DNA from: a virus
IMG/VR virus record: IMGVR_UViG_3300007038_000007
Span: 1-29,462 of that record
Length of the DNA: 29,462 nucleotides
Strand: one strand, 5' to 3'
A model generated the notes under the pieces. The model made no database searches. It had not been told where the DNA came from and saw only the letters and a list, made by a program, of their open reading frames with translations. A program made the position numbers and the translations under genes. Below, in pieces: positions 1-25,072 of this stretch. Each line of letters opens with the position of its first letter. The first letter of the stretch is position 1.

Positions 1-52
1 AACCTCGAAATTTCGAACATCGGATTCAGTCTGGACTAATCGGAGAAGTAAA

Positions 53-88
53 ATGAATAACACAATTAATATGGAGGTGACTCGATAA
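53..88 (+). other. 11-codon leader ORF ending in TAATG
   Basis: An ATG at 53 opens an 11-codon frame (MNNTINMEVTR) whose TAA overlaps the ATG of the propeller gene at 88. The Shine-Dalgarno sequence of that gene lies inside this frame. It could couple translation of the two or be chance in a short leader. No homolog can be claimed. Confidence 0.25.
73..80 (+). promoter_or_regulatory. Strong Shine-Dalgarno site GGAGGTGA
   Basis: GGAGGTGA matches the archaeal anti-Shine-Dalgarno sequence over eight bases and sits 7 nt before ATG 88. Most other genes in the window have no such site and seem to use leaderless starts or stop/start overlaps, so this one stands out and fixes the start at 88. Confidence 0.8.
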
Positions 89-1182: not shown

Positions 1183-1189
1183 ATAGTAA

Positions 1190-4100
1190 ATGACTGACAG
1201 ATTCGACGAGTGGAAGTTCCCTGAAACCTTTGACGAGGACACAGCGGATACTTTCCTCAAATTCGCTGACACCTTCGACAAGGATAGTGGCGACTACGCG
1301 GTATTCCCGTGGCAGTTCCCACAGACCTTCGGCGAAGGTGGAATTGATTCGACTCAAGTAACGGCTTCCGCCTCGATGAATACAGCCGCCGCATCCTCTG
1401 CATCTGGAATCAGTTCGGCTCAGTTCACGGCAACAGCCACTCCTTCGAATTCTGTCATTGATATTAACCAGCCCTCTGAGCAAGTTACTGCTTCTGCGGC
1501 ACCAGTCTCCTCGACGGTAACAGAAGACGCGGTGTCGTCACAGATTACTGCAAGTGCGAGTGTCAACGATGGCGTCTCGCTTGAGTCGTTCACCGCTTCA
1601 CAGGTAGCGGCATCGGCTTCGATGAACGGGGCGGCACTGCTGACGCGAGGGACTGCCACCCAGTTCAACTCCTCGGCGTCGATGAATACAACCGAGGCGG
1701 TTGAAACGGCTCAGACGATTCCGACAGCGTACTACGAGCCGATTATGCAAGAGGCTGTCAACGACCCGTCACTACAACGCCTCGACCCAAGCGACGGCTC
1801 CGTTCTACAGAGCAACAATATTGGGAATGAATTGAGTATTCTCAAAACGTCGCAACAGTATCTATATGCGAGAACGACTGATGCAGACCTCAACAACAAT
1901 AATGACGAGTATCTCGTCCAGATAGACAGGGAGACATTAACCGAGAACTGGCGAGTCTCCGTTAATCCTACGACGAGAGATGACAGGCCACGACGCATCC
2001 AGCCGATGATAGATGCTGTCGCGTTCATTAATACCTATAATGGTGACATCTACAAGTATAATGAAGATGGTACACAAGAGTGGGTTGCCGACCATTATCC
2101 GAGTAGTGACGGTAGCGGCGCAGAGGAGATTGCAGCAACGCCAGATGGGACGATACTAACGTGGTCGTCTCAGAATAGTGAGTTCAAGACGTGGGACACT
2201 GACGGCAATCTAATCACCAACGAGTTAGAAAGTAACCTGTCCTTTACAGATGTAACGTGGGTGACTGGTCGCTCTGACAACGTATTCGTTGTACACTCTG
2301 GGCCAGACCAGCGAGTCTCTGTAATTGATAAGAACCTCAACGAACAGAGTACCTATACGACAGGAGGCGACCCGCTAAGTCTTGGAGCGGTAATCGCCGG
2401 TATCGACGAGAATAATACTGTTCACACGCTGAACCAGAGTGATGACACAATCGTCTCCGTAGATACGTCGCTAACTCTCACAGAGGAGACGCAACTCCAA
2501 CACGACGCAAATAGTATCGCGCTCGACAACAACGGCGGATACTACTACCGTACAGGTAGCACCGACAGTTACCTCCGACGAGCGAACAGCGAGGGTCACG
2601 AAATCTGGGAGATTAACGGAGACGCTGGTAACGTTGCTCGCTCCCCAGACGGCTCCCTGTTCCCCGGTGAGTATGGACCACAAGAGACGCTGACGGCGAC
2701 TGCTGTCTCTGCCTCTGTGTCGATGAACGATTCGTTCTCGGTGGAGTACGAGACTGCCACACAGTTCACCGGGAGTGCCGACGCTAACGCTGCAATCGCC
2801 GCAATCCTCAGTGACGCAAACCAGTTCACGGCGTCTGCTGAGACGAACAGCGCATTCGCCGCAGCAGAGAATCCGCCGAGTGCGAAGATTACGACGACCT
2901 CCGAGGACGGGACGACGCTACAGTTATCCGACGACTTGTCGGTTGATTGGAGTGTTTCCGTTGACGGTGATAGTGTTGCTGCCGACAGTGACGGCAACAC
3001 CTACGTCGTTGCAAGTGATGGAAACCTCTACAAATACGACAGCAGTGGTAGCCTGACTTCGACGCAAGGGAACACGAACTGGGCGTCTGTGGATTACAAT
3101 GATTCTGTCGAGCGGCTCGTTGCTGGTAACGAGAATGGTGATGTGACGATATTCGAAGGAGGAGACTTCGGTAACTCTCCGACGAATGCGTCTGTCACTG
3201 CCACGTCAGCGAGTGCGCTCGAACAAGTTCACATAAACGATAGTAACAACGTCTACGTCGGGTCGAGTGGTTCCGACACCCCTGCGCTCGAAAAGTTCTC
3301 CGCAGACGCAAATGGGTTCGTTTCGAGTGAGTGGACATACGACCCCGGAACATCGTATGGAATCACGAGAGACATCGAGACGTACTCTGGCAACGTCTAC
3401 ATCGCGTTCAGTAGCGACTCCATCCTCTACCGCCTCGACGACACTGACGGCTCCGAGGTGTCCACGGAGTTCGTCTTCCCTGATGGTGCAATCGAGGTAG
3501 ACGCGGATGGCGGCAACGTCATCTACTCCGCAGATGGTTCGACGGTTCGCAGTGAGCCATTCGACTCCATCGACGGTAGTTCACCGAACTGGGAGTATAC
3601 GACGGATGACGGAGTTAGGGGAAACATCTCACTAAGTGGTGGGGATATCTACTTCGGAGACTTCTCCGGAAACGTCTACAAAGTCGATAACAGCAATGGT
3701 TCCGAGGTGTTGAAGGATACGACAATCCACTCGAATAACGTTACGTATGTAGACACGTATCCATCTGCACCAGAACTGGTGGCTGCACCTGCTGTTGCGA
3801 GTGCGTCGATGAACGATAGCATCTCGACGGATGTTATCACTGCCACGACGACAGATACAAACGCTGTTGTGAACGTCGCAGACGCAGTTGACGTAACGGC
3901 GGTATTTGTCACTCCACCGACAGCCAGCGCTTCGATGAGCCAGACGGTTTGGACGGAGCAGTTTGATGCAACGCAGTTCACGACATCTGCGTCGATGCGT
4001 ATTGCTGTTGCTGCTAACATAACAGCAACACAGACTCCGGCGACTGCGACAATGAATGCGCCGACGCTGTACTCCTTCGTGGACGAGTCTACAGACTCCA

Positions 4101-4600
4101 TCGCAGTCAGCGTCACGCAGCCACAGTCCACGCTCGTGGAAGGGCAGGGTGAGTCATCCGTTCCGGCAACTGCCTTCGCTACTCCGCTCAACATCATCGA
4201 GACGGGGCGTGCTGAGACAAGTAGCCAGAAGGGTCAAGTGTTGGTAGCGCGTACTGTTAACCAAGACACAGGTAATGCTTCCACGGAGGCTGACACGCTA
4301 CAGCCAACGGCGACGATTACAGCATCCGACGCTGTTCCGCCTAACCTCGAACTGGATTCGGTACTGAACGAAGTAGATGTTACGGTACCCGAACCGAACT
4401 TCATCTACACAGTACCGACAGAAACGAGCCTCATCTCGATTACAGCACGCGACACGGGGACATTTGCTCGACGGAGCGGGTTCCGCCTTCCCGTCGAAAT
4501 CGTCTCACGAACAGACCTCGTTGATGTTTCGACGAAGGCAAAAATCGCACGCGCACAGCGCATCCGAAATCGTGGAGTCGGTGAAACAACTTCAACATAG
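1190..4600 (+). CDS. Giant double beta-propeller protein with VTASASMN repeats, 1136 aa
   Basis: The order is: a short N-terminal segment; a repeat zone (about 55-165) with units such as VTASASMN, ITASASVN and VAASASMN roughly every 20-30 residues; a first propeller (about 185-500) with blades ending in KYNEDGTQEW-type PQQ-like strands; more repeats (about 505-560); a second propeller (about 565-865) with LYKYDSSG and VYKVDNSNGSE blades; a third repeat zone (about 870-960); and a less repetitive C-terminus ending in a basic stretch. No signal peptide, membrane segment or catalytic motif is visible. The repeats look like a stalk joining globular propellers, suggesting a fibre or spike. It lies 7 nt after the 364-aa propeller gene and before a BppU-like gene, consistent with a host-attachment operon. 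ORF and repeats are clear; function is inferred. Confidence 0.8.
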   Translation: MTDRFDEWKFPETFDEDTADTFLKFADTFDKDSGDYAVFPWQFPQTFGEGGIDSTQVTASASMNTAAASSASGISSAQFTATATPSNSVIDINQPSEQVTASAAPVSSTVTEDAVSSQITASASVNDGVSLESFTASQVAASASMNGAALLTRGTATQFNSSASMNTTEAVETAQTIPTAYYEPIMQEAVNDPSLQRLDPSDGSVLQSNNIGNELSILKTSQQYLYARTTDADLNNNNDEYLVQIDRETLTENWRVSVNPTTRDDRPRRIQPMIDAVAFINTYNGDIYKYNEDGTQEWVADHYPSSDGSGAEEIAATPDGTILTWSSQNSEFKTWDTDGNLITNELESNLSFTDVTWVTGRSDNVFVVHSGPDQRVSVIDKNLNEQSTYTTGGDPLSLGAVIAGIDENNTVHTLNQSDDTIVSVDTSLTLTEETQLQHDANSIALDNNGGYYYRTGSTDSYLRRANSEGHEIWEINGDAGNVARSPDGSLFPGEYGPQETLTATAVSASVSMNDSFSVEYETATQFTGSADANAAIAAILSDANQFTASAETNSAFAAAENPPSAKITTTSEDGTTLQLSDDLSVDWSVSVDGDSVAADSDGNTYVVASDGNLYKYDSSGSLTSTQGNTNWASVDYNDSVERLVAGNENGDVTIFEGGDFGNSPTNASVTATSASALEQVHINDSNNVYVGSSGSDTPALEKFSADANGFVSSEWTYDPGTSYGITRDIETYSGNVYIAFSSDSILYRLDDTDGSEVSTEFVFPDGAIEVDADGGNVIYSADGSTVRSEPFDSIDGSSPNWEYTTDDGVRGNISLSGGDIYFGDFSGNVYKVDNSNGSEVLKDTTIHSNNVTYVDTYPSAPELVAAPAVASASMNDSISTDVITATTTDTNAVVNVADAVDVTAVFVTPPTASASMSQTVWTEQFDATQFTTSASMRIAVAANITATQTPATATMNAPTLYSFVDESTDSIAVSVTQPQSTLVEGQGESSVPATAFATPLNIIETGRAETSSQKGQVLVARTVNQDTGNASTEADTLQPTATITASDAVPPNLELDSVLNEVDVTVPEPNFIYTVPTETSLISITARDTGTFARRSGFRLPVEIVSRTDLVDVSTKAKIARAQRIRNRGVGETTST

Positions 4601-4614
4601 AGTGATATAAAACA

Positions 4615-5016
4615 ATGCCACTACGACCAAACGACGATACGTTCTACATCAAGCAGGGTAATCGTGTCCCTGTCCTACAAGCACAGTTGACAGACGAAAA
4701 TGACGCTCCACTAAACCTTCAGTTCGCTGACAGGGTGATGTTCAAGATGTACGACCCACGAACAGGTAACGTTATCTTCGAGCGAGACGCTGTTATCGAG
4801 AATATCAAGAGCGGTGTTGTACAATACATCTGGCGAGATGGTGACACTGACGACCCCGGAAGGTTCCGTGCAGAGTTTGTTGTGCGGTATCCCGGTGGTC
4901 GGGAGGAGTCTTTCCCGAACTTCGGCTACCGAGATATTATGGTCTGGGGAAGCGAATACCAGCCAGATGTTGGCAGCGACGTGGACGTAAGTTTCCCAGC
5001 AGGGAGTGATGAATAA
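4615..5016 (+). CDS. BppU-like immunoglobulin-fold tail/baseplate domain protein, 133 aa
   Basis: The sequence follows the pattern of the BppU N-terminal domain (PF10651) as I remember it: an opening strand, a linker ending NDAPLNLQFAD, then VMFKMYDPRTGNVIF, GVVQYIWRDGDTDDPG and FRAEFVVRYPGG. In phages this Ig-like domain is part of baseplate or receptor-binding assemblies. Here it is a stand-alone acidic protein between a giant propeller gene and a conserved 218-aa gene, so an adaptor joining spikes to the short tail is likely. It is separated from the gene before by 14 nt, and its stop overlaps the next start (TAATG at 5014-5018). The family assignment is by eye. Confidence 0.65.
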   Translation: MPLRPNDDTFYIKQGNRVPVLQAQLTDENDAPLNLQFADRVMFKMYDPRTGNVIFERDAVIENIKSGVVQYIWRDGDTDDPGRFRAEFVVRYPGGREESFPNFGYRDIMVWGSEYQPDVGSDVDVSFPAGSDE

Positions 5017-5672
5017 TGGCAGAATATAACGAAGGGGACGTTGTGACGACACCCGATGGACTCGGGGTAGTGAGCGGCGTCTTTACGGAGCCGATTGACT
5101 GGCCTGTGGGCGACGAACCGGAGACAGTCGAAGGAACAGAAGACAATCCGACTTACATCGTTGGCCTCCTCTCAGGTGGTAGTAAGCCGTACCGTGAGAA
5201 CGAGTTGGAGCCTGACGAGTTCGATGGACCAGAACCGGATTCCGACGAGATTGCAGATGCAACTCGGGAAATGGTCGAGGAAGCAGGTATCCCCGACTGG
5301 TATCGCCGCGTCGGAGACGTTGAGTCTCTGGAGTCGATGCACGAAACGATGAGTGGACTCGTTCGAGTCAGCAATGTCGCAGAGTTGGCACGCACCAGAG
5401 GCACCAGTGAGATGACCTACGAAGAACTTATCGATATTCCCAGCGTGGACGACCCCGAAGTCGGGTTCTCAGACTGGCCTGACTCGTGGGAGGAGTCGGA
5501 ACAGCCTGCACGCCTCATTCTCCTGAAGGCGTGGGCCTCGATGGGTGGAACTTGGCGCGCCTGCTTCCGCGAGATGAGTACGAATATGACTCCTCGTGGC
5601 GCGCGCCGACTATGCAGTTCTATGAAGGATGAGGTATATGGAACCGAGATGTGGCGTTCATTTAGCGACTAA
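5016..5672 (+). CDS. Conserved halovirus-type protein, KOW/SH3-like N-terminus, 218 aa
   Basis: Residues about 6-65 resemble a small SH3/KOW-like barrel, starting GDVVTTPDGLGVVSG and ending in a YRENELEPDEF-type strand. After an acidic linker, the C-terminal half is helical with a distinctive WASMGGTWRACFREM motif (about 172-186) and SSMKDEVYGTEMWR near the end. I recall such W-G-G-T-W-R proteins in haloarchaeal virus and provirus structural regions, but their function is not known to me. Its start overlaps the stop of the BppU-like gene and it precedes the 744-aa propeller gene, so it probably belongs to the tail/attachment operon. Confidence 0.7.
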   Translation: MAEYNEGDVVTTPDGLGVVSGVFTEPIDWPVGDEPETVEGTEDNPTYIVGLLSGGSKPYRENELEPDEFDGPEPDSDEIADATREMVEEAGIPDWYRRVGDVESLESMHETMSGLVRVSNVAELARTRGTSEMTYEELIDIPSVDDPEVGFSDWPDSWEESEQPARLILLKAWASMGGTWRACFREMSTNMTPRGARRLCSSMKDEVYGTEMWRSFSD

Positions 5673-5685
5673 TGGTGAGTAATTA

Positions 5686-7920
5686 ATGCCTTTCGAACCA
5701 AGCATCCTTACGTCCACGATGGACGAGGACCAGATTAACGACGTACTCGACGTACACCGAGAGTGGTATCAGGGCAGCGCGTACTTGGATAACGTAAACG
5801 TACTCGGAGTCCCGAACACTCGATACAACTTCGGTGGTGGTAGAGAGTTCTCTACCCGAGGTGGATACGACGTTAAGTTCCAAGGACCTGACGGTAACTA
5901 CTACTCCCGTGCCAACGACGGTGCGCTGGAGAAGATTGACGACGAGTTCCTCGTAATAGAGCGAACGGATTTCGTCGGTAGTTTCGACCACCTTCTCGGT
6001 AATGGTTATGTCGTTGACATCCTATTCCTCCCAGATTCAAAGGACATCGAACTACAGTACGTGGATACAGATACGATGGAATGGGTGACGAATCTGCCGG
6101 GTGGAAGTGGCACCCCGTTCAGCCACAGAATCCCCGGTTCGTCTAATCTTGATTTCGTCTACCGACCCGAGGATAACTCGATGTATTACTGCGCGACGAA
6201 GACGACGCGGGATAGTGGCCTCGTACAGACGCTCGGCAAAATCAAGTTCGACGGCTCCCCAAGCAACACCCCACAGGTCGAGTGGCAGAAGGATTTGACG
6301 GATAGTCGTAACTATCTCGGTGAACGAATCGAACAAATCTTCTGGTACGATGGGGACCTCTATACATATGGACCCGGCATCATCCTACAGGTTGACCCGG
6401 TTGATGGTCGTATCACTGGTCGGGACAACTTCGGTGGTCAACTCCCCACAGAAGTGGACTTCGCTGAACTCGACATAGATGCTCCAGCACAGGTGACTCC
6501 TGATGGGAACCTGCACATTCACATCAAACACGCACCCGGTGAACTTGGTGGTGGTGAGTTCGACAGCGACACCAGCAGTACGTACAACCTCGAAGTAACA
6601 GACCAAGACAGATACATCGTTTACGATATCGACAATGGTGAGATTACAAAGGACCTGTACACCTATGATGGAATCGAGGGTGTTCCTCTTGCTGGGCCTG
6701 TTAACCGAGAGGATATAGACGGCGACGGATTCCTCGAACGAACAGACATTCGTGGTCGGTTCAGTGAGAACGGCATCGACAGAGAGCCGTGGGCTTCCGT
6801 TCCTGACAACATCTCGTCAATCGACGTGACACCATACGGATACATTCTATCTATCGACAGCGACATCCTCCCTCGAATAGAGTTCCGAGACCACGAGGAC
6901 GATAGACTCAAGTGGCGGGTATACTCTGGCATCTTCCAGTACGAGACTGGCGCAGAGCCGGAGGGAGAAGCCTTCAACCACCGACAGATTGGTGCTGACG
7001 CTGAGAAGTTCGTGGACGAAGCCTACCCCGAGTACGAGAAGATTCCCGATGTATGGAGTAACCCACCAGAGTTTGTTGATGGGACGGCGCAGACGCCAAC
7101 TGCCGTTGCAACTCAGGCTGGAATCATTCCTGATTACATCCTCAATGCTGGTGAAAGTAATCCACGCGGAACGCTCGAAGAAGTGACAGCGCCGGGTGAC
7201 GTATATAAAGTTGTCGATAGTGAGTTTGCACTACGCGGCTCGCACGACCTCAAATACGATTATGTCCTTCTCCAACTCGGCTCGAATCTGTACGAGAAGT
7301 ACAACATTGTAAAGTCTGTAACGACTAACGTTGGTGGTAGTGAATACTTCGTTGGTGAGGAGAACGAGCAGATTACCTTCCGCAAGTCGAGTAACGTCGC
7401 TGTGGCAAACGAAGGTGTCGTCGTCGAGGAATCGTCTGTAAAGAGTTCCGCAACAGCGACGGCGACCACATCCTCGTTCGGAGACGTGCGTGTCGTTGCG
7501 ACGAGCAACCTCGTCAAACCGCAGGTTGGTATCCTTGGTGGTGGGGAGTCCATCGACGGTGGTCCTGCTGCCGACGAAACTAACACACTCTATACGAACA
7601 CCAGCAGCACACTTAACAGTATCAGTGTAACCACCAAATCGAGTGAGACTGTCGGTGCATCTGTAGAGAACTCTGTCACGCAGTCTGTTACTGTAACGAC
7701 GACTGGTAACAACGAGACAGTGTACCTTGCAACTGAGGCTAACCCAAGCCTCGTCACTACCACGACGAGCATCAAGACTACCACGACTGAAGCGAACGCT
7801 GTTCCAAACATCAAGTTGAATCTAATAGAAGTCGATACAATCAGCGAACCCGACGACTTCTACCTACGTCGTGCGCTAACTGTTGGTGAAACGACTGGTG
7901 CAGACACGACACCCGACTAA
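5686..7920 (+). CDS. Propeller-head and Thr/Ser-rich stalk protein, probable tail spike, 744 aa
   Basis: The N-terminal two thirds (about 40-460) contain blade-like repeats such as IFWYDGDLYTYGPG, QVDPVDGRITG and IVYDIDNGEITKDLYTYDG, consistent with a beta-propeller more degenerate than those at 88, 1190 and 26013. From about residue 540 the sequence becomes Thr/Ser/Val-rich with short beta repeats (SVTTKSSETVGASVENS, VTVTTTGN), resembling a fibre stalk. GGTGA at 5674-5678 sits 7 nt before the ATG. It is the last gene before the promoter of the protease-capsid operon. A receptor-binding or spike function is inferred from architecture and position; no glycosidase or protease motif could be recognised. 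Confidence 0.7.
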   Translation: MPFEPSILTSTMDEDQINDVLDVHREWYQGSAYLDNVNVLGVPNTRYNFGGGREFSTRGGYDVKFQGPDGNYYSRANDGALEKIDDEFLVIERTDFVGSFDHLLGNGYVVDILFLPDSKDIELQYVDTDTMEWVTNLPGGSGTPFSHRIPGSSNLDFVYRPEDNSMYYCATKTTRDSGLVQTLGKIKFDGSPSNTPQVEWQKDLTDSRNYLGERIEQIFWYDGDLYTYGPGIILQVDPVDGRITGRDNFGGQLPTEVDFAELDIDAPAQVTPDGNLHIHIKHAPGELGGGEFDSDTSSTYNLEVTDQDRYIVYDIDNGEITKDLYTYDGIEGVPLAGPVNREDIDGDGFLERTDIRGRFSENGIDREPWASVPDNISSIDVTPYGYILSIDSDILPRIEFRDHEDDRLKWRVYSGIFQYETGAEPEGEAFNHRQIGADAEKFVDEAYPEYEKIPDVWSNPPEFVDGTAQTPTAVATQAGIIPDYILNAGESNPRGTLEEVTAPGDVYKVVDSEFALRGSHDLKYDYVLLQLGSNLYEKYNIVKSVTTNVGGSEYFVGEENEQITFRKSSNVAVANEGVVVEESSVKSSATATATTSSFGDVRVVATSNLVKPQVGILGGGESIDGGPAADETNTLYTNTSSTLNSISVTTKSSETVGASVENSVTQSVTVTTTGNNETVYLATEANPSLVTTTTSIKTTTTEANAVPNIKLNLIEVDTISEPDDFYLRRALTVGETTGADTTPD

Positions 7921-7944
7921 CAATGATACGAAACTATCCTAATG

Positions 7945-7979
7945 GGCACAAGAGTAAAGGGAAGACAGCACCTATTAAT
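7945..7979 (+). promoter_or_regulatory. Late promoter: GGCACAAGAGTAAAGG, 12 nt, TATTAAT
   Basis: GGCACAAGAGTAAAGG at 7945-7960 is followed after exactly 12 nt by TATTAAT at 7973-7979. The same 16-mer and spacing recur before 21533, a one-base variant before 16925 and a three-mismatch variant before 29010. TATTAAT would be the TATA box, putting the transcript start near 8000. The upstream 16-mer is not a standard haloarchaeal BRE, so I infer a binding site for a virus or host activator. Confidence 0.7.
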
Positions 7980-7998
7980 GAACAAGTACGTCCATCGG

Positions 7999-8014
7999 TG
8001 GACACATCTGTACA
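7999..8014. promoter_or_regulatory. Operator-like dyad TGGACA-CATC-TGTACA
   Basis: This copy matches the TGTACA-N4-TGTACA dyad seen at 15013 and 17602 except for one base in the left half, and like them it is followed by TC. It lies where transcription from the TATTAAT box at 7973 should start, a position suited to repression of the protease-capsid operon. A small hairpin GTCCA-TCGG-TGGAC (7990-8003) overlaps its left half. Confidence 0.55.
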
Positions 8015-8020
8015 TCGCTT

Positions 8021-10933
8021 ATGACTGAGGCAATTGAAACCGTCGCCCTCGAAGTAGTCAACAAGAAGGTTGCAGTAGAGGATGCAGACGTAGAAGATGG
8101 TACTGTTGTTAGTGGCATCGCCCTCGGTGCAGGTGACGTAACCGTTGGACAGAGTGGTACGAAGAAGAAGTGGCCTGCTGAGACGTTGAAGGACGCAGCA
8201 CCAACACTTGCTGGGCAGCCACTCGTTACAGACCACGAGAACAATTCTCGAAATACTGTTGGTCAAGTGACGAAGGCTGGTTACAAGGAGGACGTTGGTG
8301 TCGTCTACGAAGCGGTTCTTTTCGACAATGAGTTGGCACAGAAAGTAGAGAAGGGACTACTCGAAGTAAGTATCCGTGGCTACCACAAGGACCCAGAGGA
8401 GATGGAGAAGGACGAGGATGGTGCTGCTATTATCGACAAACTCGTCTTCGACAACCTCTCCATCGTTCCGAACGGTGCCTCTCCGAGCAACACGCTCGAA
8501 ATGGGAGAACACGCTGAACTCGAACAGAATCTCGCTGGCTTGTTCGATGGGGAAGTCGCCAATCTGACAGAATCAGAAGTGTCGGGAAATTCCGAAGGCT
8601 ATTCTCCATCGGAAGGAGATTACGTCAGTTGGTACGACGAGTCAGAGGAGATGGATAGGTTCGGTAAGATTATCCGTAACCCCGATGAAGAAGACACGGT
8701 TGAGGTTATCCCACACGACTCTGCCGAGGCTGTCGAAGTTTCCGAGGAGTCGCTGGAGCCGTGGAAGAAGGGTGAAGACCTCGAAGGGGACGGTGACAAG
8801 CAGAAATCACCAGACTGGCAGAAACTCGCTGAAAAACACAACGAACGTGTAGGCGAGACCTACCAAGAGACGAACGCCGATACACTGGAAAAAGTGTACA
8901 ATCGTGGGATTGAGAACTACGACGAGGAGGGCGCGGAAGTGCCTGCGCCGAACTGGGCAATGGCTCGTGTTAGTTCCTTCCTCAAGTTGCTCCGAGAACA
9001 GCGAGTCTCTGACGAGTACACGCAGGACGACGACCTCCTTTCAGAAGACCATCCGTGGTTCGACGAGGAGGCTCCGTCTGGACGCGCCGCTGGAATCCCT
9101 CGACAGATTTCGGAGGAGGACCAGAAGAAGGTTCAAAAACAGTTCGGTGAAACCTACAACTCCAAGAAGAAGGCTACCACCCGCGCCAAGGAACTTGGTC
9201 TCGACGGCTACCACGAAGTCACGTTTGGTGACAAGACTGTGTATATGCCGGGAGACGACCACACTGATTTCGTCAAGGCTCTCTCCACTGAAGGACAGGA
9301 CGACGAGCCTGACACGACAGAGCAGTCGAACGACGATTGGCGCACCGACGACTCGCTCTCACTCTGGCAGAAGGTCTGCCGAGAAGTTGACATCTCCGAC
9401 GAGAACTTGGAGACTGTCGATGAACTTGAAGGCGTAGATGAAATCTACGCTGAGTGGCAGGACGCCACTAATATGAATGAGGAGTCGATGGACGAGTGGA
9501 TGCAACATCCGTGTTCGTCCAAGGCTTCCGTTCGACCCACGAAGGTTCAGGAACGTAACCTGAAACTGATGGAAGACTCCAAGGGTGACTGGGACGAGAC
9601 GCACACCGAAGCGGCAAAGCGTGCTGTCTCCTTCATCTCTCGAATGAGAGGTCAGCGCCCCGAAGACATCAACGAAGGACCAGAGGGTTGTCCCAGCAAG
9701 TGGGCTATTAGTCTGCTCAACTGGGGCTTCAATCCCTTCGATAGTCTACCACCTGAGCCGGATGGGATAGAACTTGAAGTGCGTATGCCAGATTATCGCG
9801 GCATCAACGCCGAGGATGACTGGAACGCACCAGACTTCGAGGACTTCCGCGAACCGTACAATCTCGATGATGGTACGTCGTGGAACGACCTCGATAGAGA
9901 GATGCGAGACGCCATCGCGGAACACTTCGTGTACTCCGCAGACGGGTGGCCTCCTGAGAACTTCGGTGATTTGAAGTTCCCGGTTGTCCATCCAGATGGT
10001 ACACTGTACCTCTCTGCACTACGAAGCGCGAAGCAGTTCGCATCCCGTGCCAACATCCCTGAAGAACAGCAGACGATGGTTCGGGAGATTGTGAACGACT
10101 TGGCAAAGCGAGAGTTCGACAAGGACTGGTCAGAGAATGAGCCAACCGAGCAATCGGTGGACATTCCGTCTGGCGACCTGAAGGTCATTCAGACTCAAGC
10201 GCACTCGCTGAACCGACGCTCGAAGGCGACCCTCCAACAGATGAAGGAGGTCTATCGTCGTGGTCGAAAGGTCTACGACGAGGCTCCCGATGAGGAAATC
10301 GAGGGCGTTAACCCGAGCGAGTTCGCGCTCGAACGAGTCCATCACTACAGTAACCTGCTCGAAGCAGGACTACCGATGGACGAGCGGTATTCCGAGGATA
10401 ATGACTTGCTTCCGTCTAACCACCCTCGGAAAGAACCGATGGATTCGTCGGAACTCACGGAGGTAACTCCTGCGGGGTTCCGAGGATTCGAAACGCAGTC
10501 GGTGGAGGAAGCAGACAACGATTCAGATACAACAATGACTGATGACAACGACGAGTCTGTCGAGGAACTCCGCGAAGCCGTGGAGGAACTTGAGCAGACC
10601 AACGACGAACTACTCGACGAAATCGAAACTGTTCGTGGAGAGTACGCGGCTGCTCTATCCGAGCATTCGCCCTTCGACGAGGAGGAACTTGTAGATAAGT
10701 TCTCCGTCGAGGAACTCCGCGAGAAGTACGACGAGTACGATGAGGCTCGCCTCGCTGACGCTGGCCCTGCTCCCGAAGCAGGTGACGCTGACGAGGCTGA
10801 ACTATCCGGCTCCGACGAGGAGACTGACGAGCGCATCGCCACACTCGAAGCACAGGCTGAGAATTATGAGCGTATGGGCTGGGACGCCGCACTCGCGGAG
10901 ACCAAGCAGGAGATTGAGGAACTCCGTAACTAA
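8021..10933 (+). CDS. Prohead maturation protease fused to scaffold, 970 aa
   Basis: Residues 1-165 resemble HK97-type prohead proteases: DHENNSRNTVGQV with candidate catalytic His72, a GLLEVSIRGY motif with Ser117, and NLSIVPNGASPSNT. There follow an SH3-like piece (about 195-250), a helical module around LEKVYNRGIENYDEEG...NWAMARVSSFL (about 287-345), a long acidic centre, a second copy of that module, MKEVYRRGRKVYDEA...SEFALERVHHYSNLL (about 740-807), and a highly acidic coiled-coil scaffold (about 838-970). The duplicated module resembles DUF5824 as I remember it. Typical proteases of this type have about 200 residues, so this is far larger. In the family the enzyme cleaves the scaffold during capsid maturation. 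The capsid gene follows after 29 nt. Met838 could be an internal start giving scaffold alone. Confidence 0.8.
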   Translation: MTEAIETVALEVVNKKVAVEDADVEDGTVVSGIALGAGDVTVGQSGTKKKWPAETLKDAAPTLAGQPLVTDHENNSRNTVGQVTKAGYKEDVGVVYEAVLFDNELAQKVEKGLLEVSIRGYHKDPEEMEKDEDGAAIIDKLVFDNLSIVPNGASPSNTLEMGEHAELEQNLAGLFDGEVANLTESEVSGNSEGYSPSEGDYVSWYDESEEMDRFGKIIRNPDEEDTVEVIPHDSAEAVEVSEESLEPWKKGEDLEGDGDKQKSPDWQKLAEKHNERVGETYQETNADTLEKVYNRGIENYDEEGAEVPAPNWAMARVSSFLKLLREQRVSDEYTQDDDLLSEDHPWFDEEAPSGRAAGIPRQISEEDQKKVQKQFGETYNSKKKATTRAKELGLDGYHEVTFGDKTVYMPGDDHTDFVKALSTEGQDDEPDTTEQSNDDWRTDDSLSLWQKVCREVDISDENLETVDELEGVDEIYAEWQDATNMNEESMDEWMQHPCSSKASVRPTKVQERNLKLMEDSKGDWDETHTEAAKRAVSFISRMRGQRPEDINEGPEGCPSKWAISLLNWGFNPFDSLPPEPDGIELEVRMPDYRGINAEDDWNAPDFEDFREPYNLDDGTSWNDLDREMRDAIAEHFVYSADGWPPENFGDLKFPVVHPDGTLYLSALRSAKQFASRANIPEEQQTMVREIVNDLAKREFDKDWSENEPTEQSVDIPSGDLKVIQTQAHSLNRRSKATLQQMKEVYRRGRKVYDEAPDEEIEGVNPSEFALERVHHYSNLLEAGLPMDERYSEDNDLLPSNHPRKEPMDSSELTEVTPAGFRGFETQSVEEADNDSDTTMTDDNDESVEELREAVEELEQTNDELLDEIETVRGEYAAALSEHSPFDEEELVDKFSVEELREKYDEYDEARLADAGPAPEAGDADEAELSGSDEETDERIATLEAQAENYERMGWDAALAETKQEIEELRN

Positions 10934-10962
10934 ATCCTCAAACAACTAATAGGTAAACTACA

Positions 10963-11787
10963 ATGGTACAAGATGGAACTCTCACGTCCAGTGAGGTAAT
11001 TTCGCAGGAAGCAGTTCGAGCAGAGGTTCTGGAAGCCGTGCAGGAGGACCTTGTCTTCCGTCAGGCTTTCGATGAGTACGACGCAACCGACATCAATTCC
11101 AGCGCGGTTCAGATTCCCGTCGCTGACGACACCGTTCCCGAGACTTCGACTGTCTCCGAGGGTTCGGCTGTCGCCTCCCGTGAGGAAGAACTCACGAGCA
11201 AGGTAACGGTTGACACGTCGAAGTATATGGCTGAAGCGGCTATCACCCGCGAGGCAATCGAGGACTCCATCCTTGGAGAAATCGAGCGTCAGGTCGAAGC
11301 ACACCAGCAGTCTCTTATGGAGGCTCTCGACGGTGCCGCTTACGCCGAACTCAACGCAGGCTACACTCAGCCTGATGTTGGTGACCTTGGTGGAAATATG
11401 GACTACGACACCATCGTTGACGCGATGACGGCGCTGGAGGAAGACGGCTACTCGCCTGACCTTCTCATCGTCGGCGCTCAGTCGAAGGGTGACCTCCTCA
11501 AGTCCACTGAGTTCACTCGTGCATCCGAGATGGGTGACGAAGTGATTATGAACGCTCAGTTCGGTGAGGTCGCTGGCGTGCCTGTTGCTGTCTCCAACGT
11601 TGGAGACCTCGGTGCAGGTGAAGGGTTTATGGTTGACTCCGACCATTTCGGTGTCGAAGTTATCCGCTCCGACGTGGAGACCCGAGAGTACGAGGAGGAG
11701 AGCAACGACCAAGTTGTTGTCCAGATTCGTACCCGACGTGGATACAAGACGCTGCGCGGAGACGCCGCAGTAAAGATTACGGCGTAG
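10963..11787 (+). CDS. Major capsid protein, HK97 fold, 274 aa
   Basis: The position directly after the protease/scaffold gene and the sequence pattern identify the capsid protein. A helical N-terminus is followed by EELTSKVTVDTSKYMAEAAITREAIEDS (E-loop to spine-helix region, about 70-97), an A-domain-like stretch around SPDLLIVGAQSKGDLL and VAGVPVAVSNVGDLG, and the ending VVVQIRTRRGYKTLRGDAAVKI. The last block is typical of HK97-type coat proteins of haloarchaeal tailed viruses. It should assemble the icosahedral shell around the scaffold. At 274 aa it is compact, with no obvious cleaved delta domain because the scaffold is carried by the protease gene. There is no Shine-Dalgarno site before ATG 10963; translation probably depends on the operon transcript. 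Confidence 0.85.
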   Translation: MVQDGTLTSSEVISQEAVRAEVLEAVQEDLVFRQAFDEYDATDINSSAVQIPVADDTVPETSTVSEGSAVASREEELTSKVTVDTSKYMAEAAITREAIEDSILGEIERQVEAHQQSLMEALDGAAYAELNAGYTQPDVGDLGGNMDYDTIVDAMTALEEDGYSPDLLIVGAQSKGDLLKSTEFTRASEMGDEVIMNAQFGEVAGVPVAVSNVGDLGAGEGFMVDSDHFGVEVIRSDVETREYEEESNDQVVVQIRTRRGYKTLRGDAAVKITA

Positions 11788-11820
11788 AGCCTGTAATCTA
11801 AACCCTCGGATTTCATATTT

Positions 11821-12174
11821 ATGGCACGAATTGAACCAGAAGACATTGAAGAAGTCGCGGATTTCGACCTCGAACCCAGCGACGTACAGGGGTTCATCGA
11901 TGACGCACACCTTATCGTGCAACGTCGATGCGCTCCCTACGCCACAGACGCAGACCAGCAGTCTCTCGCGTCTACCGAGGTCTACGTAGCCGCGCACTTG
12001 CTCACAAGCAAGTCACCACAGGTTCAATCAACCTCAGCCGAGGGGATGAGTGTTTCCTACGCTCGCGGTGACGGTGGCGACGACTACTGGCATAAGGCGA
12101 TTCTCACTGACCCGACAGGGAGACTCGCTCGACCAGACGGTTGGAACGTGTACTCAACACATCAAGACGCTTAA
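11821..12174 (+). CDS. Head-tail connector (adaptor-like) protein, 117 aa
   Basis: This small acidic protein opens with ARIEPEDIEEVADFDLEPSDVQGFIDDAHLIVQRRCAPY, then a helix TEVYVAAHLLTSK and a C-terminal arm with SYARGDGGDDYWHKAILTDPTGRL. This helical layout (residues searching for D-x-x-L/V helices, then a membrane-free helix 'VAAHLLT', then an arm) is typical of gp15/gp6-type head completion adaptors that bind the portal underside. It is the first gene after the capsid gene, as expected for an adaptor. There is a 33-nt gap upstream without a clear Shine-Dalgarno site. The family call rests on pattern and position. Confidence 0.65.
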   Translation: MARIEPEDIEEVADFDLEPSDVQGFIDDAHLIVQRRCAPYATDADQQSLASTEVYVAAHLLTSKSPQVQSTSAEGMSVSYARGDGGDDYWHKAILTDPTGRLARPDGWNVYSTHQDA

Positions 12175-12180
12175 CTAATT

Positions 12181-13050
12181 ATGCCACTCCTCAAACCAGA
12201 AGAAATCTCCACGGCTGGACCACAGGGTGTCGCAGAGGACGAACGTCCCGTCATCTATATGGCAGGACCAACTCCCGCGAACGAGACAGAACTGGGACCA
12301 ATTATGGAGAAGTTGTACGAGCGATTCTACAATCGCGCAGACTTCGTTGACCCTTCATCTATTCACGGTGAGGGTGATGGTGGAGGCGGCGACCTTGTAG
12401 ACATCGACAACAATCGCTACTGGAATAGTGGGGGTGGCTTCAAGGAGAGCGTCTTCGAACGAGACAGGACGCGACGAGCAGACGACTCGCTTATTATCGA
12501 CCTCATTCGTGGAGACATCGACGAAGCGTTCGGTTTCGAAGGATATACTGAACGGTTCCTCGACGTTGCGTTGAACAGTATCGACGCACTAATCGAAATC
12601 GACCCGCTACTGTTCGACCTCAACTTCGACGCAGACCCAGACATCGTGTTCGCAGGACCAATTCCAATTCCGATTGGGATTCCGTTCTTCGACCTTGAGT
12701 TCGACCCGGTTGATATTAACATCTTCGGCGGAATTGTCGAATTTGTTAAGCAGATGATATTCCAGTCACTTGCAACAGTTGTGGACGCGGTACTCGTGTC
12801 CAGAAAGGCTGGACACAATATGGTCGGTGCAGCGATGGAAGTGAAGGAAGCGTATGATAACGACCTTCCAGTTGCAGTGTACGACCACTCCGACAAGGAA
12901 ACATCAGACCCTATTCCCGTGATGCTCGACCAGCACTCGGATTACGTCACCAATAATCCTAACTGGGCGGCATCGTGGTTGATTGACGAGGTACAGAAGC
13001 GGAAAGAAAACGGCGACGTACAGCAAATAAAAGACAGCGACCACCAGTGA
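12181..13050 (+). CDS. Nucleoside deoxyribosyltransferase-like protein with internal insertion, 289 aa
   Basis: Residues 23-58 (PVIYMAGPTPANETELG to FVDP) look like the first strand, AGP loop and helix of nucleoside 2-deoxyribosyltransferase/DUF4406 Rossmann-like proteins. Residues 201-235 (VDAVLVSRKAGHNMVGAAMEVKEAYDNDLPVAVY) look like the second half, in which G-x-x-x-E (here with Glu220) is the catalytic region. Between them lie about 100 extra residues, including a hydrophobic Pro/Ile/Phe-rich stretch (158-185). Family members cleave or transfer N-glycosidic bonds of deoxynucleosides. The gene sits in the head-tail connector operon, 6 nt after the adaptor, so the fold may have been recruited to a structural or host-interaction role. 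Activity is unproven and the match is remote. Confidence 0.45.
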   Translation: MPLLKPEEISTAGPQGVAEDERPVIYMAGPTPANETELGPIMEKLYERFYNRADFVDPSSIHGEGDGGGGDLVDIDNNRYWNSGGGFKESVFERDRTRRADDSLIIDLIRGDIDEAFGFEGYTERFLDVALNSIDALIEIDPLLFDLNFDADPDIVFAGPIPIPIGIPFFDLEFDPVDINIFGGIVEFVKQMIFQSLATVVDAVLVSRKAGHNMVGAAMEVKEAYDNDLPVAVYDHSDKETSDPIPVMLDQHSDYVTNNPNWAASWLIDEVQKRKENGDVQQIKDSDHQ

Positions 13051-13055
13051 CCCGA

Positions 13056-13259
13056 ATGAGCGACGAGTCTGATGAACAAGACGACTACGAGAAATATGGA
13101 TTGGATGTTGCTAAGGCAAACGGTGACATCCGAATCTATATGGTTGCAGATAAAGAAGTTTATCTACAGTCTGACACCTCCGTTGACGAACTCTTGGACG
13201 ACACTGACAGCGACCCAACATATAACCCAGACACCGATAACCGAGGTGGGGACGAATGA
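13056..13259 (+). CDS. Small acidic protein in connector operon, 67 aa
   Basis: A very acidic protein with one predicted beta segment (DIRIYMVADKEVYLQ, about residues 25-39). I chose ATG 13056; a GTG at 13047 would add three residues and overlap the preceding stop. Its stop overlaps the next start (ATGA at 13256-13259). I recognise no family. Being translationally coupled between head-tail genes, it may be a minor virion protein or a chaperone. Confidence 0.6.
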   Translation: MSDESDEQDDYEKYGLDVAKANGDIRIYMVADKEVYLQSDTSVDELLDDTDSDPTYNPDTDNRGGDE

Positions 13260-13609
13260 GTGAACAATTGAGTGATATTCCCGATTTCTACGAGAAGAAC
13301 AGAGCCGCCCTCGAACGACAGTTTAACCATTTCTCGCAGAACGCAACGCTCATCCAAACACTCGCTGGCGGCGACACCGAGGAGCAGGAGTTAGAGGTGA
13401 TAGTCGTCCACCGAAACCCTGTCTCGCTCGACAACTACACAAACTTCGACGTACAGATTAAGGCGCTCCAACGAGACTTGCCGAGCGACTTCGCGCAGAA
13501 CGATTACATCCGTCTTTCTCGGAACGACCAACTGTTCCAAGTTGACGCAATCAGCGACGAGGTTGTCACGGTGCGGCTCGAATGTAGTGCCCAGACGACT
13601 ATATCATAA
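13256..13609 (+). CDS. Probable head-tail stopper/completion protein, 117 aa
   Basis: A short helical start (DIPDFYEKNRAALERQFNHF) is followed by a beta-rich body, including ELEVIVVHRNP, TNFDVQIKALQRDLPSDFAQNDYIRLSRNDQLFQVDAI and VVTVRLEC. This resembles the small barrel of head-closure proteins such as SPP1 gp16, and the position two genes after the adaptor agrees. It overlaps the previous gene by four bases. The identification is from layout and secondary-structure pattern, not a confirmed motif. Confidence 0.5.
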   Translation: MSEQLSDIPDFYEKNRAALERQFNHFSQNATLIQTLAGGDTEEQELEVIVVHRNPVSLDNYTNFDVQIKALQRDLPSDFAQNDYIRLSRNDQLFQVDAISDEVVTVRLECSAQTTIS

Positions 13610-13623
13610 CTCTGACAATAACG

Positions 13624-14016
13624 ATGGACCCAGTAATGGTTGCCATCGTCGGAGCAGTTGCCTCTGCGATTCTTGCAGGAATCGCGTGGTTTTGCCGAAG
13701 GCTACTACGAAAGTGGCGCTCCTTCTGGGAGCGGTTCGAGACACTCGAAGAACGAGCCGACAAAGCGAAGCGACGTAACGACAAAGTATTGTCAATCCTC
13801 TTTGGACGAGAGGTAGACGAATCCGACGATGGTCTGGCAGAAGAAGTACAGAGCGGTTTCGGAGAACTCGCGCAAGAAATCGACGAACTCGACGGAGACC
13901 TCGACGACCTCGATGGAGTGGTAAGCATCATCGTTGTCGAACTACATCAAGACGATGACGTAGACTTCGACAAGAATGATTACGACTTCAGCGCCGAGTT
14001 GAAGAAACTCGAATAA
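13624..14016 (+). CDS. Membrane-anchored coiled-coil protein, 130 aa
   Basis: One hydrophobic helix (residues about 4-23, VMVAIVGAVASAILAGIAWF) is followed by a basic patch (CRRLLRKWRSF) and a heptad-like acidic helix to about residue 100 (ERADKAKRR, LAQEIDELDGDLDDLD). The N-out helix with positive flank suggests anchoring in the host membrane with the coiled coil in the cytoplasm. It closes the late operon and could be a holin-like exit protein or a membrane-penetration component; neither can be decided from sequence. Confidence 0.65.
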   Translation: MDPVMVAIVGAVASAILAGIAWFCRRLLRKWRSFWERFETLEERADKAKRRNDKVLSILFGREVDESDDGLAEEVQSGFGELAQEIDELDGDLDDLDGVVSIIVVELHQDDDVDFDKNDYDFSAELKKLE

Positions 14017-14056
14017 CTATTCAAACGCCATAGAAGGCTTAACAGCAGACGGGGTT

Positions 14057-14084
14057 CATCACTCTTTTCCCACTTTCCTTTCCC
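14057..14084 (+). terminator. Pyrimidine/T-rich tract after late operon
   Basis: A run of short T-tracts (CTCTTTTCCC, ACTTTCCTTTCCC) begins about 40 bp after the stop of the last late gene. Archaeal RNA polymerase stops at T-rich stretches on the non-template strand without needing a hairpin, so this is the likely end of the 8021-14016 transcript. Confidence 0.4.
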
Positions 14085-14124
14085 GAACAGAAACATCTCT
14101 TTTCGGAACGCAAACATATCTTCG
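14085..14124. repeat. Two tandem near-repeats GAACRSAAACATMTCTT, 21-bp period
   Basis: GAACAGAAACATCTCTT at 14085 and GAACGCAAACATATCTT at 14106 differ at three positions and repeat with one 21-bp step, two helical turns. This phasing suits side-by-side protein binding, as in iterons. Confidence 0.45.
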
Positions 14125-14156
14125 TGAAGTAGTAAGTAGGGTTGGCTGGTGACGAA

Positions 14157-14227
14157 GTATATAAAGGAATACGGTAAATGTGGTTTGTGGAGTCAGAATA
14201 ATTCTTTGGCTGAGAGTATATAAAGGG
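14157..14227 (+). promoter_or_regulatory. Two TATA-like boxes GTATATAAAGG, 59 bp apart
   Basis: GTATATAAAGG occurs at 14157-14167 and again at 14216-14226. The first is preceded by GACGAA, acceptable as a BRE. No gene follows in either direction at the right distance, so these would make short untranslated transcripts or be AT-rich melting sites. Confidence 0.4.
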
Positions 14228-14285
14228 ATTGGGAGAATTGGTTTACGAGAAGCCGTGCGCGGAAACAGAGGGGAGAGAGGGGAGA

Positions 14286-14301
14286 TTCCGCCGATTCGGA
14301 A
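14286..14301. repeat. Inverted repeat TTCCG-CCGATT-CGGAA
   Basis: A perfect 5-bp stem with a 6-base loop lies in the noncoding region. Just downstream GAGGGT (14326-14331) and ACCCTC (14361-14366) form another possible stem enclosing 29 bases. The function is unknown; structured RNA or a protein-binding site are both possible. Confidence 0.35.
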
Positions 14302-14713
14302 AACAGGGGTCTCATAGCCTCTCTGGAGGGTACAGTATCCACCGTATTCTGGGAGTATGAACCCTCTCGTTGAAGTTGGGCGCGCCGAAGGCACGCATCC
14401 GCAGAAGAATTGCAACAACTTAGAGAAGGCTCTGTCAAGGTTCTTACACGACCCTCAAAGAGGTACAGCAGTCACCTGAATCCGACGAGAAAAATGCCAT
14501 AGAGTCGGCTCAGAAAAGTAAGTCTCTAAGTAGTGAGGGCGATTGACTACTCCTCACAAGACGACAGCACACGAGGACAGCGGGTTGTCACGGGACAGCC
14601 AGCAAGAGAGTGTTCGGATGAAGTGTCTTCCATCCAAGTGTGTTGAATCATTCCATCTGATATCTCTGTTCAACCAACCTGTCTGGAAGGAATCGTTCGA
14701 CCACACTCTGCTG

Positions 14714-14736
14714 CCACCGTGCCAACTCTGCGGTGG
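14714..14736. repeat. Inverted repeat CCACCG-N11-CGGTGG
   Basis: A perfect 6-bp GC-rich stem encloses an 11-base loop. It lies in the noncoding region with no gene in register on either strand. It could be part of a folded RNA or a terminator-like structure. Confidence 0.35.
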
Positions 14737-14955
14737 AAGGGAGTAAGTGTCTCGCTTTCGTTCCACCTGACTCGTCGAAGTCTTCTTCTCCTCCCTTCAG
14801 AATATAGTTACGCCTACCTTGTCTCAATACTTCCCTATCCCTTTAGACAGCAACGGTGGCTGAGGTTCAGGAGTCCCAACACCTCGTCGGATGAAGGGAC
14901 TTGCGCTTGGACGAGACTTTGTTGTACTTCGTTATTACTACATACGCACTACACC

Positions 14956-14987
14956 CACTTAAGTCTTGTGCCGATGCGGGTAGCATC
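14956..14987. repeat. 32-bp imperfect repeat, copy 1
   Basis: This 32-bp stretch begins CACTTAAGTCTT and ends GGGTAGCATC. It matches 15226-15257 at 25 of 32 positions. CACTTAAGT contains a TTAAGT box like the early promoters, and the 3' part forms a hairpin GATGC-GGGTA-GCATC (14973-14987). Confidence 0.5.
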
Positions 14988-15012
14988 ATTGATGGACAGA
15001 GTTGGCACTCAA

Positions 15013-15028
15013 TGTACAGAAGTGTACA
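15013..15028. promoter_or_regulatory. Operator-like dyad TGTACA-GAAG-TGTACA
   Basis: Two perfect TGTACA hexamers are separated by four bases and followed by TC, exactly as at 17602. Since TGTACA is itself self-complementary, the whole site is a strong dyad. It lies in the noncoding region about 26 bp downstream of the first 32-bp repeat. Confidence 0.6.
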
Positions 15029-15091
15029 TCGCCGCCCTCGTCGGAGGAGTCGCACGTTGAGTCTCGTCCAAAGATGTAGGCGCGGAGAAAA

Positions 15092-15108
15092 ATCCTCCGA
15101 CGAAGGAT
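15092..15108. repeat. Inverted repeat ATCCT-CCGACGA-AGGAT
   Basis: A perfect 5-bp stem with a 7-base loop lies within the noncoding region, preceded by an A-run. Its role is unknown. Confidence 0.3.
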
Positions 15109-15225
15109 GGGCGAACACTATCGAGGAAGATGCTGAGGAGGAAGTCGAGGCGCAACAAGTATGGCAACTTACTGACCTTGACGGAGTGTCCTGCCTGACT
15201 TCCATCTGTATATAGGGCCTCTCAT

Positions 15226-15257
15226 CACTTAACTCTTTCGCCGCTGTGGGTAGCGTG
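15226..15257. repeat. 32-bp imperfect repeat, copy 2
   Basis: This is the second copy of the 32-bp element, 270 bp from the first, beginning CACTTAACTCTT and ending GGGTAGCGTG. A short dyad CGCT-GTGGGT-AGCG (15242-15255) keeps the GGGT in the loop. TGTATATAGGG lies just upstream. Confidence 0.5.
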
Positions 15258-15293
15258 TCAACCACTTGCCGGAGGAGTAAGACTTATGTGCCC

Positions 15294-15410
15294 ACCCCGT
15301 AGTTCACAGAGAACCGTAACCCCTTTATAGGAGGCGGTGTCGGTGTCACACTCATATTCTCTGAACAAGGATTTCCACCGCCGATTACCCTACCCCGTAT
15401 TCCACAGAAA
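15294..15410. repeat. Paired 19-bp repeats ACCCCGTAKTYCACAGARA
   Basis: The element occurs at 15294-15312 and 15392-15410 with three differences and a 98-bp step. CCCTTTATAGG (15319-15330) lies between the copies. They are close to the end of the leftward operon and could be protein-binding sites. Confidence 0.45.
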
Positions 15411-15470
15411 AAGTCGCCTGCTCGACAGAACCGTCGTCGGTGCTATATTCCTATCTCGTCTGAGAGTATT

Positions 15471-18906: not shown

Positions 18907-19860
18907 ATGGCAAATTTCAAATTCCAAACACTAAACGAATCTCGAATCGAAACGTTTGAATACGTCCCCGAAGAACTGAAGCAGCGTCAGCAATGGCTCT
19001 GCTACAGAATCGACGGAGACGATAAAATACCGAAGGCTCCACGCTGGACGGTAGACGGTGACCTCCACGTCAAGAACATCGGTGTTCGCTCGAACGACGA
19101 GTGGACAGACTACCGAACTGCGTCGGAGTTCGTACAAGAAACCGAACAGAAACTCCCACCAGAAGAATCACTGGATGGCGTTGGGTTCGTTCTTACAGAA
19201 GATGACCCCTACGTCTTCGTAGACCTCGACCACCACATCGAGGAAGGTGAAATAAGCGACTTCGCGCAGGAGTGGCTGGACGAACTCGACGGATGGACTG
19301 AGCAGTCTTCGTCTGGTGATGGGCTTCACATTTTCGTGAAGGCTGATGATTTCTCGATGGACGGCTACCGGAAGAAGGCAGACGAACTCGGTGTAGAAGT
19401 TTACACGGAGGCACGGTTCTGTGCCACAACTTCCGACACACTCTCTAATTATAACACTTCTATCTCTCCGCGTGCCAACCCGCTGCGGCGGCTTGCGGAG
19501 CGGTACTTGGTGAAGGAGGAAGATGATTCTTCCGAACCACTCGAACCACAATGGGACGACGAATCGGAGAAGGACGTGCCGAAGATTATTAATACTGCAT
19601 CACAGTACGACGACACGTTTGAAACTCTGCACCGAGGCGGAACGGTGCATCACGACGACTCCCACGACGACATCTCCTACCTCACGAAGTGTTTCTTCTG
19701 GGCGAAGGGCGACGAAGGCGTCGTGCGAGATATGGCGAAACGGAGTAGCCGACCACGACAGAAGTGGAAGGAACCACGCAATGGCGGAACGTGGTTCGAC
19801 GAGCGAATCGAGGAAGCGAAGAAGTTTCAGGACGACACATACGACGGCAGTTACTTCTGA
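18907..19860 (+). CDS. Minimal archaeo-eukaryotic primase-polymerase (NrS-1-like), 317 aa
   Basis: The three catalytic motifs of archaeo-eukaryotic primase-like polymerases are visible: FVDLDHH (D106, D108), SSSGDGLHIFV (SGxGxH type, H141) and VEVYTEARFCATTSD (about 163-177). The N-terminus has the RQQWLCYRI and PKAPRW pattern of phage NrS-1-like primase-polymerases, and residues about 252-305 (DISYLTKCFFWAKGD...VVRDMAKRSSRPRQKW...FDERIEEAKKF) match their helical C-terminal domain. It should make primers and possibly extend DNA at the virus fork. No helicase domain or helicase gene is present, so the virus must borrow a host helicase. It has its own promoter at 18826. Confidence 0.8.
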   Translation: MANFKFQTLNESRIETFEYVPEELKQRQQWLCYRIDGDDKIPKAPRWTVDGDLHVKNIGVRSNDEWTDYRTASEFVQETEQKLPPEESLDGVGFVLTEDDPYVFVDLDHHIEEGEISDFAQEWLDELDGWTEQSSSGDGLHIFVKADDFSMDGYRKKADELGVEVYTEARFCATTSDTLSNYNTSISPRANPLRRLAERYLVKEEDDSSEPLEPQWDDESEKDVPKIINTASQYDDTFETLHRGGTVHHDDSHDDISYLTKCFFWAKGDEGVVRDMAKRSSRPRQKWKEPRNGGTWFDERIEEAKKFQDDTYDGSYF

Positions 19861-21532: not shown

Positions 21533-21988
21533 ATGTCTGAGGATGGACCAAACGGCAACCCTGACCCTCCGAACCAATTCGAGGAGGGCAACACTGCCCA
21601 CCTAAAGCACGGCTTGTGGCAAGAGCAGGATAAACTCGTTGACTCACTCGATAGCGAGGAGCAGAAACTCGTTGGAACGATGAGCAAGGAGTTCGTCTCG
21701 AAGTACAAGGACGCCCACGGAGAGGCACCCGGCTCTGTCGAGCGAGAGATGATTCGTAATCTAATTCTCGACACCATCAAGCGCCGTCGCTTCAACGACT
21801 GGCAGTTCACTCAGGAGGATTTCATCAACTTCGACTCCGAGGCTCGGCACAACGTGTACTCGCGTCTCCGCCGTGACAACCGCGAGGAGATGGAGTCGCT
21901 TGGGCTACTCGACTCACCAGAGGCAAAGAAGCAGGAAGCAGAAGCAGACTGGTTTGAGGCGATGTCCAACGCCGACCCCGACGAGTAA
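21533..21988 (+). CDS. Terminase small subunit, 151 aa
   Basis: The N-terminus NPPNQFEEGNTAHLKHGLWQEQDKL-like stretch (residues about 10-35) is the typical G-N-x-A-x-x-H-G start of phage small terminases, followed by helices and a long charged helix (EARHNVYSRLRRDNREEMESLGLL). It should recognise the packaging site and recruit the large subunit, whose start follows its stop directly. The protein is acidic as expected for haloarchaea. The start is fixed by the leaderless promoter at 21483-21517. Confidence 0.8.
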   Translation: MSEDGPNGNPDPPNQFEEGNTAHLKHGLWQEQDKLVDSLDSEEQKLVGTMSKEFVSKYKDAHGEAPGSVEREMIRNLILDTIKRRRFNDWQFTQEDFINFDSEARHNVYSRLRRDNREEMESLGLLDSPEAKKQEAEADWFEAMSNADPDE

Positions 21989-23578: not shown

Positions 23579-23584
23579 TCAACT

Positions 23585-25063: not shown

Positions 25064-25072
25064 ATTACAACA

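Follow-up and report, generated by a model that had tools for sequence, protein, structure and literature searches.

A putative nucleoside deoxyribosyltransferase-fold accessory protein with an altered active site in the capsid operon of a halovirus

Nucleoside deoxyribosyltransferase (NDT) genes are recorded as nucleotide-metabolism accessory genes in several families of archaeal tailed viruses (PMC8651126). A preliminary description of the 29,462-nucleotide stretch of viral DNA analysed here (the window; IMG/VR record IMGVR_UViG_3300007038_000007) recognised a deoxyribosyltransferase-like fold in an unexpected place, inside the operon for head and tail assembly. This raises the question of whether the gene encodes an enzyme that has strayed from its usual neighbourhood, a structural protein built on an enzyme fold, or something in between.

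The window is the genome of a small virus of salt-loving archaea (halovirus). Its first and last 99 bases are identical (window positions 1–99 and 29364–29462), and this exact end repeat shows that the assembly is circular and complete, at 29,363 bp. Among the main open reading frames (ORFs) in window 88–14016 and 21533–29402, no tail tube, sheath or tape measure was recognised by Pfam and PHROG searches. As tail proteins went unmatched in a complete genome, the window group may represent another short-tailed or tailless haloarchaeal lineage, judging from its gene content; the only short-tailed archaeal family named in a 2021 survey is Shortaselviridae (PMC8651126). HGTV-1, a capsid and portal relative of the window virus, has a contractile tail. 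A beta-propeller protein (PF13360; 88–1182) and three paralogous small phrog_17792 proteins (25073–25468, 25507–26007 and 29010–29402) flanking a 979-amino-acid (aa) protein look like host-recognition or surface proteins. A primase/polymerase with an NrS-1-type domain (PF22763) is encoded at 18907–19860. The ~1.4 kb separating the late operon from the minus-strand genes (14020–15470) lacks an acidic, halophile-like ORF and is a possible regulatory or replication origin region.

Positions 12181–13050 contain an intact ORF of 289 aa (Table 1). Two other IMG/VR contigs, L006 (IMGVR_UViG_3300017587_000015) and L007 (IMGVR_UViG_3300019924_000030), carry orthologues at the identical gene position, with pairwise protein identities of 44–58% across the three viruses. 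In this comparison, pN (0.26–0.35) was far below pS (0.74–0.75, saturated), and we therefore consider this a real gene whose frame is, by its substitution pattern, under purifying selection. Two ORFs that overlap it, 12141–12350 on the plus strand and 12417–12896 on the minus strand, were taken as chance occurrences, selection acting on the 289-aa frame. Conservation is unevenly distributed along the protein: 52% of residues 21–62 and 46% of residues 186–280 are invariant in the three orthologues, compared with 19% of residues 63–185. Such a pattern points to a single conserved domain split by a variable segment. The characteristic motifs lie in the conserved parts, VIYMAGP at residues 24–30, GAAME at 216–220 and LPVAVY at 229–234, which agrees with the motif and the Glu220 numbering first proposed.

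Table 1. Coordinates of the NDT-fold gene, its parts and its neighbours in the window.
Feature	Positions	Strand	Evidence
NDT-fold protein, whole ORF (very likely fold)	12181–13050	+	ORF; PHROG 19940, E = 6.3e-6; orthologues in L006 and L007; PDB fold matches to NDTs
Core part 1, residues 21–62: strand 1 (VIYMAGP, Tyr26), helix, strand 2 (ADFVDP)	12241–12366	+	52% invariant; aligns with IYLTGA and FINP of L065
Variable region, residues 63–185, at the putative site of the DNPH1 lid ('shielding loop')	12367–12735	+	19% invariant; alignment with relatives
Core part 2, residues 186–280: VDAVLV strand, GAAME helix with Glu220, LPVAVY strand, last strand and helix	12736–13020	+	46% invariant; 40% identity to L065 over 43 residues
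Glu220 codon, equivalent of the NDT nucleophile Glu	12838–12840	+	Invariant in three orthologues and L065; Tyr in HGTV-1 gp52
DUF4054-like head–tail adaptor, upstream	11821–12174	+	PF13262, E = 0.0047 (below cut-off); phrog_37884, E = 3.7e-24
70-aa ORF, downstream	13047–13259	+	Start overlaps the NDT-fold gene end by 4 bases in all three viruses
117-aa ORF ('stopper' of the preliminary description)	13256–13609	+	No significant family match; 19–27% identity between the three viruses

The variable segment accounts for the unusual length of the protein. VIYMAGP and GAAME are 185 residues apart, not about 100 as originally estimated, and the same motifs are separated by only ~74 residues in the related protein of contig L065 (see below), so that the window protein exceeds it by about 110 residues in this part. 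On the sequence alignment, as opposed to superposed structures, this insert would sit where DNPH1 has its variable lid, the 'shielding loop' (PMC10603095). A proline-rich hydrophobic stretch within it was rejected as a membrane segment: the segment is hydrophobic in places, with hydropathy maxima of 1.2–1.5 compared with 2.3 for the transmembrane protein encoded downstream, and contains no stretch of transmembrane grade by this measure.

Direct searches of Pfam, NCBIfam, PDB sequences, phages and IMG/VR with the window protein returned nothing beyond PHROG 19940, a family of unknown function that covers residues 199–271; no Pfam, NCBIfam or connector PHROG family was matched. The core with the insert deleted had no Pfam match even at E = 10, and no relative of the window protein was found in scans of GTDB genomes. 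The PHROG 19940 profile is common to the window protein, L006, L007, HGTV-1 gp52 and L065, a 4.7-kb viral contig that was reached with a profile built on the second core half and encodes a 145-aa protein (E = 8.5e-10 against PHROG 19940). The sole Pfam match of the L065 protein is PF05014, the family of NDTs and DNPH1-type N-hydrolases, at E = 0.014 over profile positions 1–102 of 117, with a score of 15.9 bits against a curated cut-off of 28.8. PF05014 and PF15891 profiles found no match in the window virus, the two other carriers, three other IMG/VR relatives and 11 isolated haloviruses. Both models are therefore too narrow for the halovirus clade. Comparison of the core with eight phage DUF4406-type proteins (PF14359) by hhalign, a relationship raised in the preliminary description, was not significant (probability 0.8%, E = 0.067).

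Structure prediction led to the same family. The AlphaFold2 model of the L065 protein, based on a five-sequence alignment, had a pLDDT of 71.9 and a pTM of 0.72. A Foldseek search with this model against 350,542 PDB chains placed NDTs (14 of 16) and human DNPH1 (2 of 16) at ranks 1–16, the best match having an E-value of 2.2e-4 and a probability of 1.00, with TM scores of 0.54–0.59. For the window protein, an alignment of three sequences yielded only a poor model (pLDDT 34), yet the top six PDB chains it retrieved were without exception NDTs or BcmB, a CMP N-glycosidase (E = 0.015–0.062). The low confidence of this model, together with the missing direct family match, would be expected if the resemblance to NDTs were a chance match of Rossmann-like motifs. 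We consider this very improbable, given the transitive family match through L065 and the top ranking of NDTs and DNPH1 with a reasonable L065 model. The L065 bridge to PF05014 and the fold search of the models are two independent lines, on the strength of which we take the NDT fold to be established across the family; for the window protein it is very likely, as the preliminary description had proposed. The window group shares with PF05014 the order of strands and helices, the G-x-x-x-E nucleophile motif, the fold matches to NDTs and DNPH1 and, in two of the three orthologues, the Tyr after strand 1. It differs from PF05014 in its extra lid-region residues, its late-operon position, the lack of the triad Asp at the expected place and, in the relatives, an altered AGP loop.

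Catalysis in the NDT superfamily depends on a triad of Tyr, Asp (or Asn) and Glu, represented by Tyr6-Asn77-Glu103 in DmtZ and likewise present in DNPH1 (PMC12884076, PMC10603095); replacement of Glu103 or Tyr6 of DmtZ by Ala abolishes activity (PMC12884076). In the window group, neither the nucleophile Glu220 nor the surrounding segment GxAMExKEA varies among the window, L006 and L007. The triad Tyr after strand 1 is present in the window (Tyr26) and L006 and replaced by Phe in L007. No Asp or Asn was found eight residues before the strand-3 Asp in the window, L006, L007, L065 or gp52, in an alignment where a register shift of one residue is possible; the corresponding column holds Asp in HATV-2 gp51 and PhiCh1 gp70. 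The loop that follows strand 1 reads AGP in the window, TTRP in L006 and VSAP in L007, so the VIYMAGP half-motif noticed at the outset is present in the window but its AGP is not kept in the orthologues. The triad is complete in HATV-2 gp51 and PhiCh1 gp70 and is without its Asp in L065, whereas Tyr, Asp and Glu have all been lost in HGTV-1 gp52 (L008 2288–2737), an NDT-like protein from a tRNA and DNA polymerase B region. On this alignment, the window group appears to stand part-way along a series of active-site change. With only part of the catalytic triad present, the protein cannot be assumed to be an active enzyme.

An enzymatically inactive nucleotide-binding protein, serving as a regulator or as a sponge for nucleotide-derived signals, would fit the missing triad Asp and the disappearance of the AGP loop from two of the three orthologues, all the more as HGTV-1 gp52 of the same family also lacks the Tyr and the Glu. 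Strict conservation of the nucleophile Glu argues against such a protein, as does a PADLOC analysis that gave no match to defence-related families, and we rate this explanation as fairly unlikely.

The gene is embedded among late genes. In contig G001, terminase, portal, fibre-like proteins, protease, capsid, adaptor, the NDT-fold protein and three small proteins follow one another contiguously. Upstream of the adaptor lie an HK97-type capsid gene (10963–11787) and a protease-like gene (8021–10933). The latter encodes a 970-aa protein that is DUF2213-like at its N-terminus, matches DUF5824 and ends in a coiled-coil, probably scaffold-like C-terminus; the protein varies in length from 820 to 991 aa across relatives. 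The adaptor itself directly precedes the NDT-fold gene, as first described, and the latter begins six bases past the adaptor stop. Downstream, the overlap with the 70-aa ORF makes translational coupling of the two genes likely, judging from their arrangement. The next ORF had been labelled a stopper, a name for which Pfam and PHROG scans provided no significant family match. The late operon ends with a 130-aa protein (13624–14016) that combines a coiled coil with a single transmembrane helix at its N-terminus; it occurs in all three relatives, the L007 copy stopping at the contig end, and a role in lysis or injection is possible.

This setting is an argument for a structural or assembly protein of the head–tail connection, in which the catalytic site would be a relic and the insert would dock on the adaptor or portal. 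The gene sits between the adaptor and the following late genes in all three viruses and overlaps the next ORF, its triad is degenerate, and unusual neck parts are conceivable in a virus in which tail tube and tape measure were not found. However, among the relatives sharing the major capsid protein (MCP) that were examined, only the window virus, L006 and L007 carry the NDT-fold gene, whereas the others have neck genes without such a protein. Several of these contigs are short, and the absence is firm only where a contig covers the downstream region. The adaptor is shared by L015 (45% identity, against 53% for the capsid protein), where siphovirus-type genes come next and an NDT gene is missing. 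A clean insertion beside the 70-aa ORF was considered and set aside, the 63-aa ORF of L015 being too weakly similar to prove it. As those other MCP relatives do without the gene, its product would not be an obligate connector. In addition, the surroundings of Glu220 are among the most conserved parts of the protein, conservation is lowest in the insert that would do the docking, and relatives of the gene are found in replication regions. A structural role thus has an appreciable chance of being correct but is not the explanation we would choose. A reading in which the protein is virion-borne, anchored by its lid at the head–tail vertex, and targets nucleotides of the host or immune signals derived from nucleotides when the genome enters, appears quite improbable.

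The gene neighbourhoods of halovirus relatives are as one would expect for an enzyme of nucleotide metabolism, and here the initial expectation of a home among nucleotide or replication genes was confirmed: HGTV-1 gp52, HATV-2 gp51 and L065 are all encoded near DNA polymerase B (L065 beside a family B polymerase), the first two also near tRNA genes. HGTV-1 gp52 and L065 share PHROG 19940 and ~29–40% identity over 43–63 residues of the second core half with the window protein; unlike it, they are single-domain proteins of 145–149 aa without the insert. HATV-2 gp51, annotated as a nucleoside deoxyribosyltransferase, and PhiCh1 gp70 also come from haloarchaeal tailed viruses and keep Glu and Tyr, with weak sequence similarity detected via L065 (E = 0.6 and E = 4e-3, respectively), but differ from the window protein in keeping the Asp and having no long insert. 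Among phage enzymes of the NDT superfamily, DmtZ of Gordonia phage Ghobes is a dAMP hydrolase/transferase; in contrast to the window protein, it has a complete triad and is encoded in a Z-genome nucleotide cluster (PMC12884076). A viral fold search also matched a phage Ghobes entry, annotated as deoxyuridine triphosphatase.

Because the relatives sit beside DNA polymerase B genes in other haloviruses, an intracellular role acting on nucleotides is the simplest reading. We propose that the protein is a late accessory member of the NDT superfamily, made inside the infected cell along with the other late gene products, that would bind a deoxynucleoside or deoxynucleotide and cut or exchange its N-glycosidic bond through Glu220, while the long lid would set substrate choice or serve docking. 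We regard this proposal, including its location outside the virion, as about evenly poised between right and wrong. It is favoured by the invariance of Glu220 and its surrounding segment and by the membership of L065 and all three orthologues in PHROG 19940. Against it stand the missing triad Asp, the Tyr26 to Phe change in L007, the changed AGP loop in two of three proteins, the lack of a direct Pfam match at E = 10, the non-significant DUF4406 comparison, and an assembly-gene setting that, with the overlap into the next gene, could mean a virion role.

Most simply, an NDT-like gene of haloviruses would have moved into the late operon of the window group and gained its insert, a direction of change that we infer. 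NDT genes in haloarchaeal tailed viruses were known before, and the relatives that could be located (HGTV-1, HATV-2 and L065) lie near DNA polymerase genes; the window gene instead sits inside a capsid operon, and its product has a large insert at the putative active-site lid and a partly dismantled triad. The window protein is best described, from sequence comparison, as an accessory protein of NDT fold whose active site is altered and not as a proven NDT, probably an ordinary virus enzyme in an unusual place that has been partly remodelled. The graded series of HATV-2 gp51, L065, the window group and HGTV-1 gp52 may illustrate how viruses repurpose a nucleotide enzyme.
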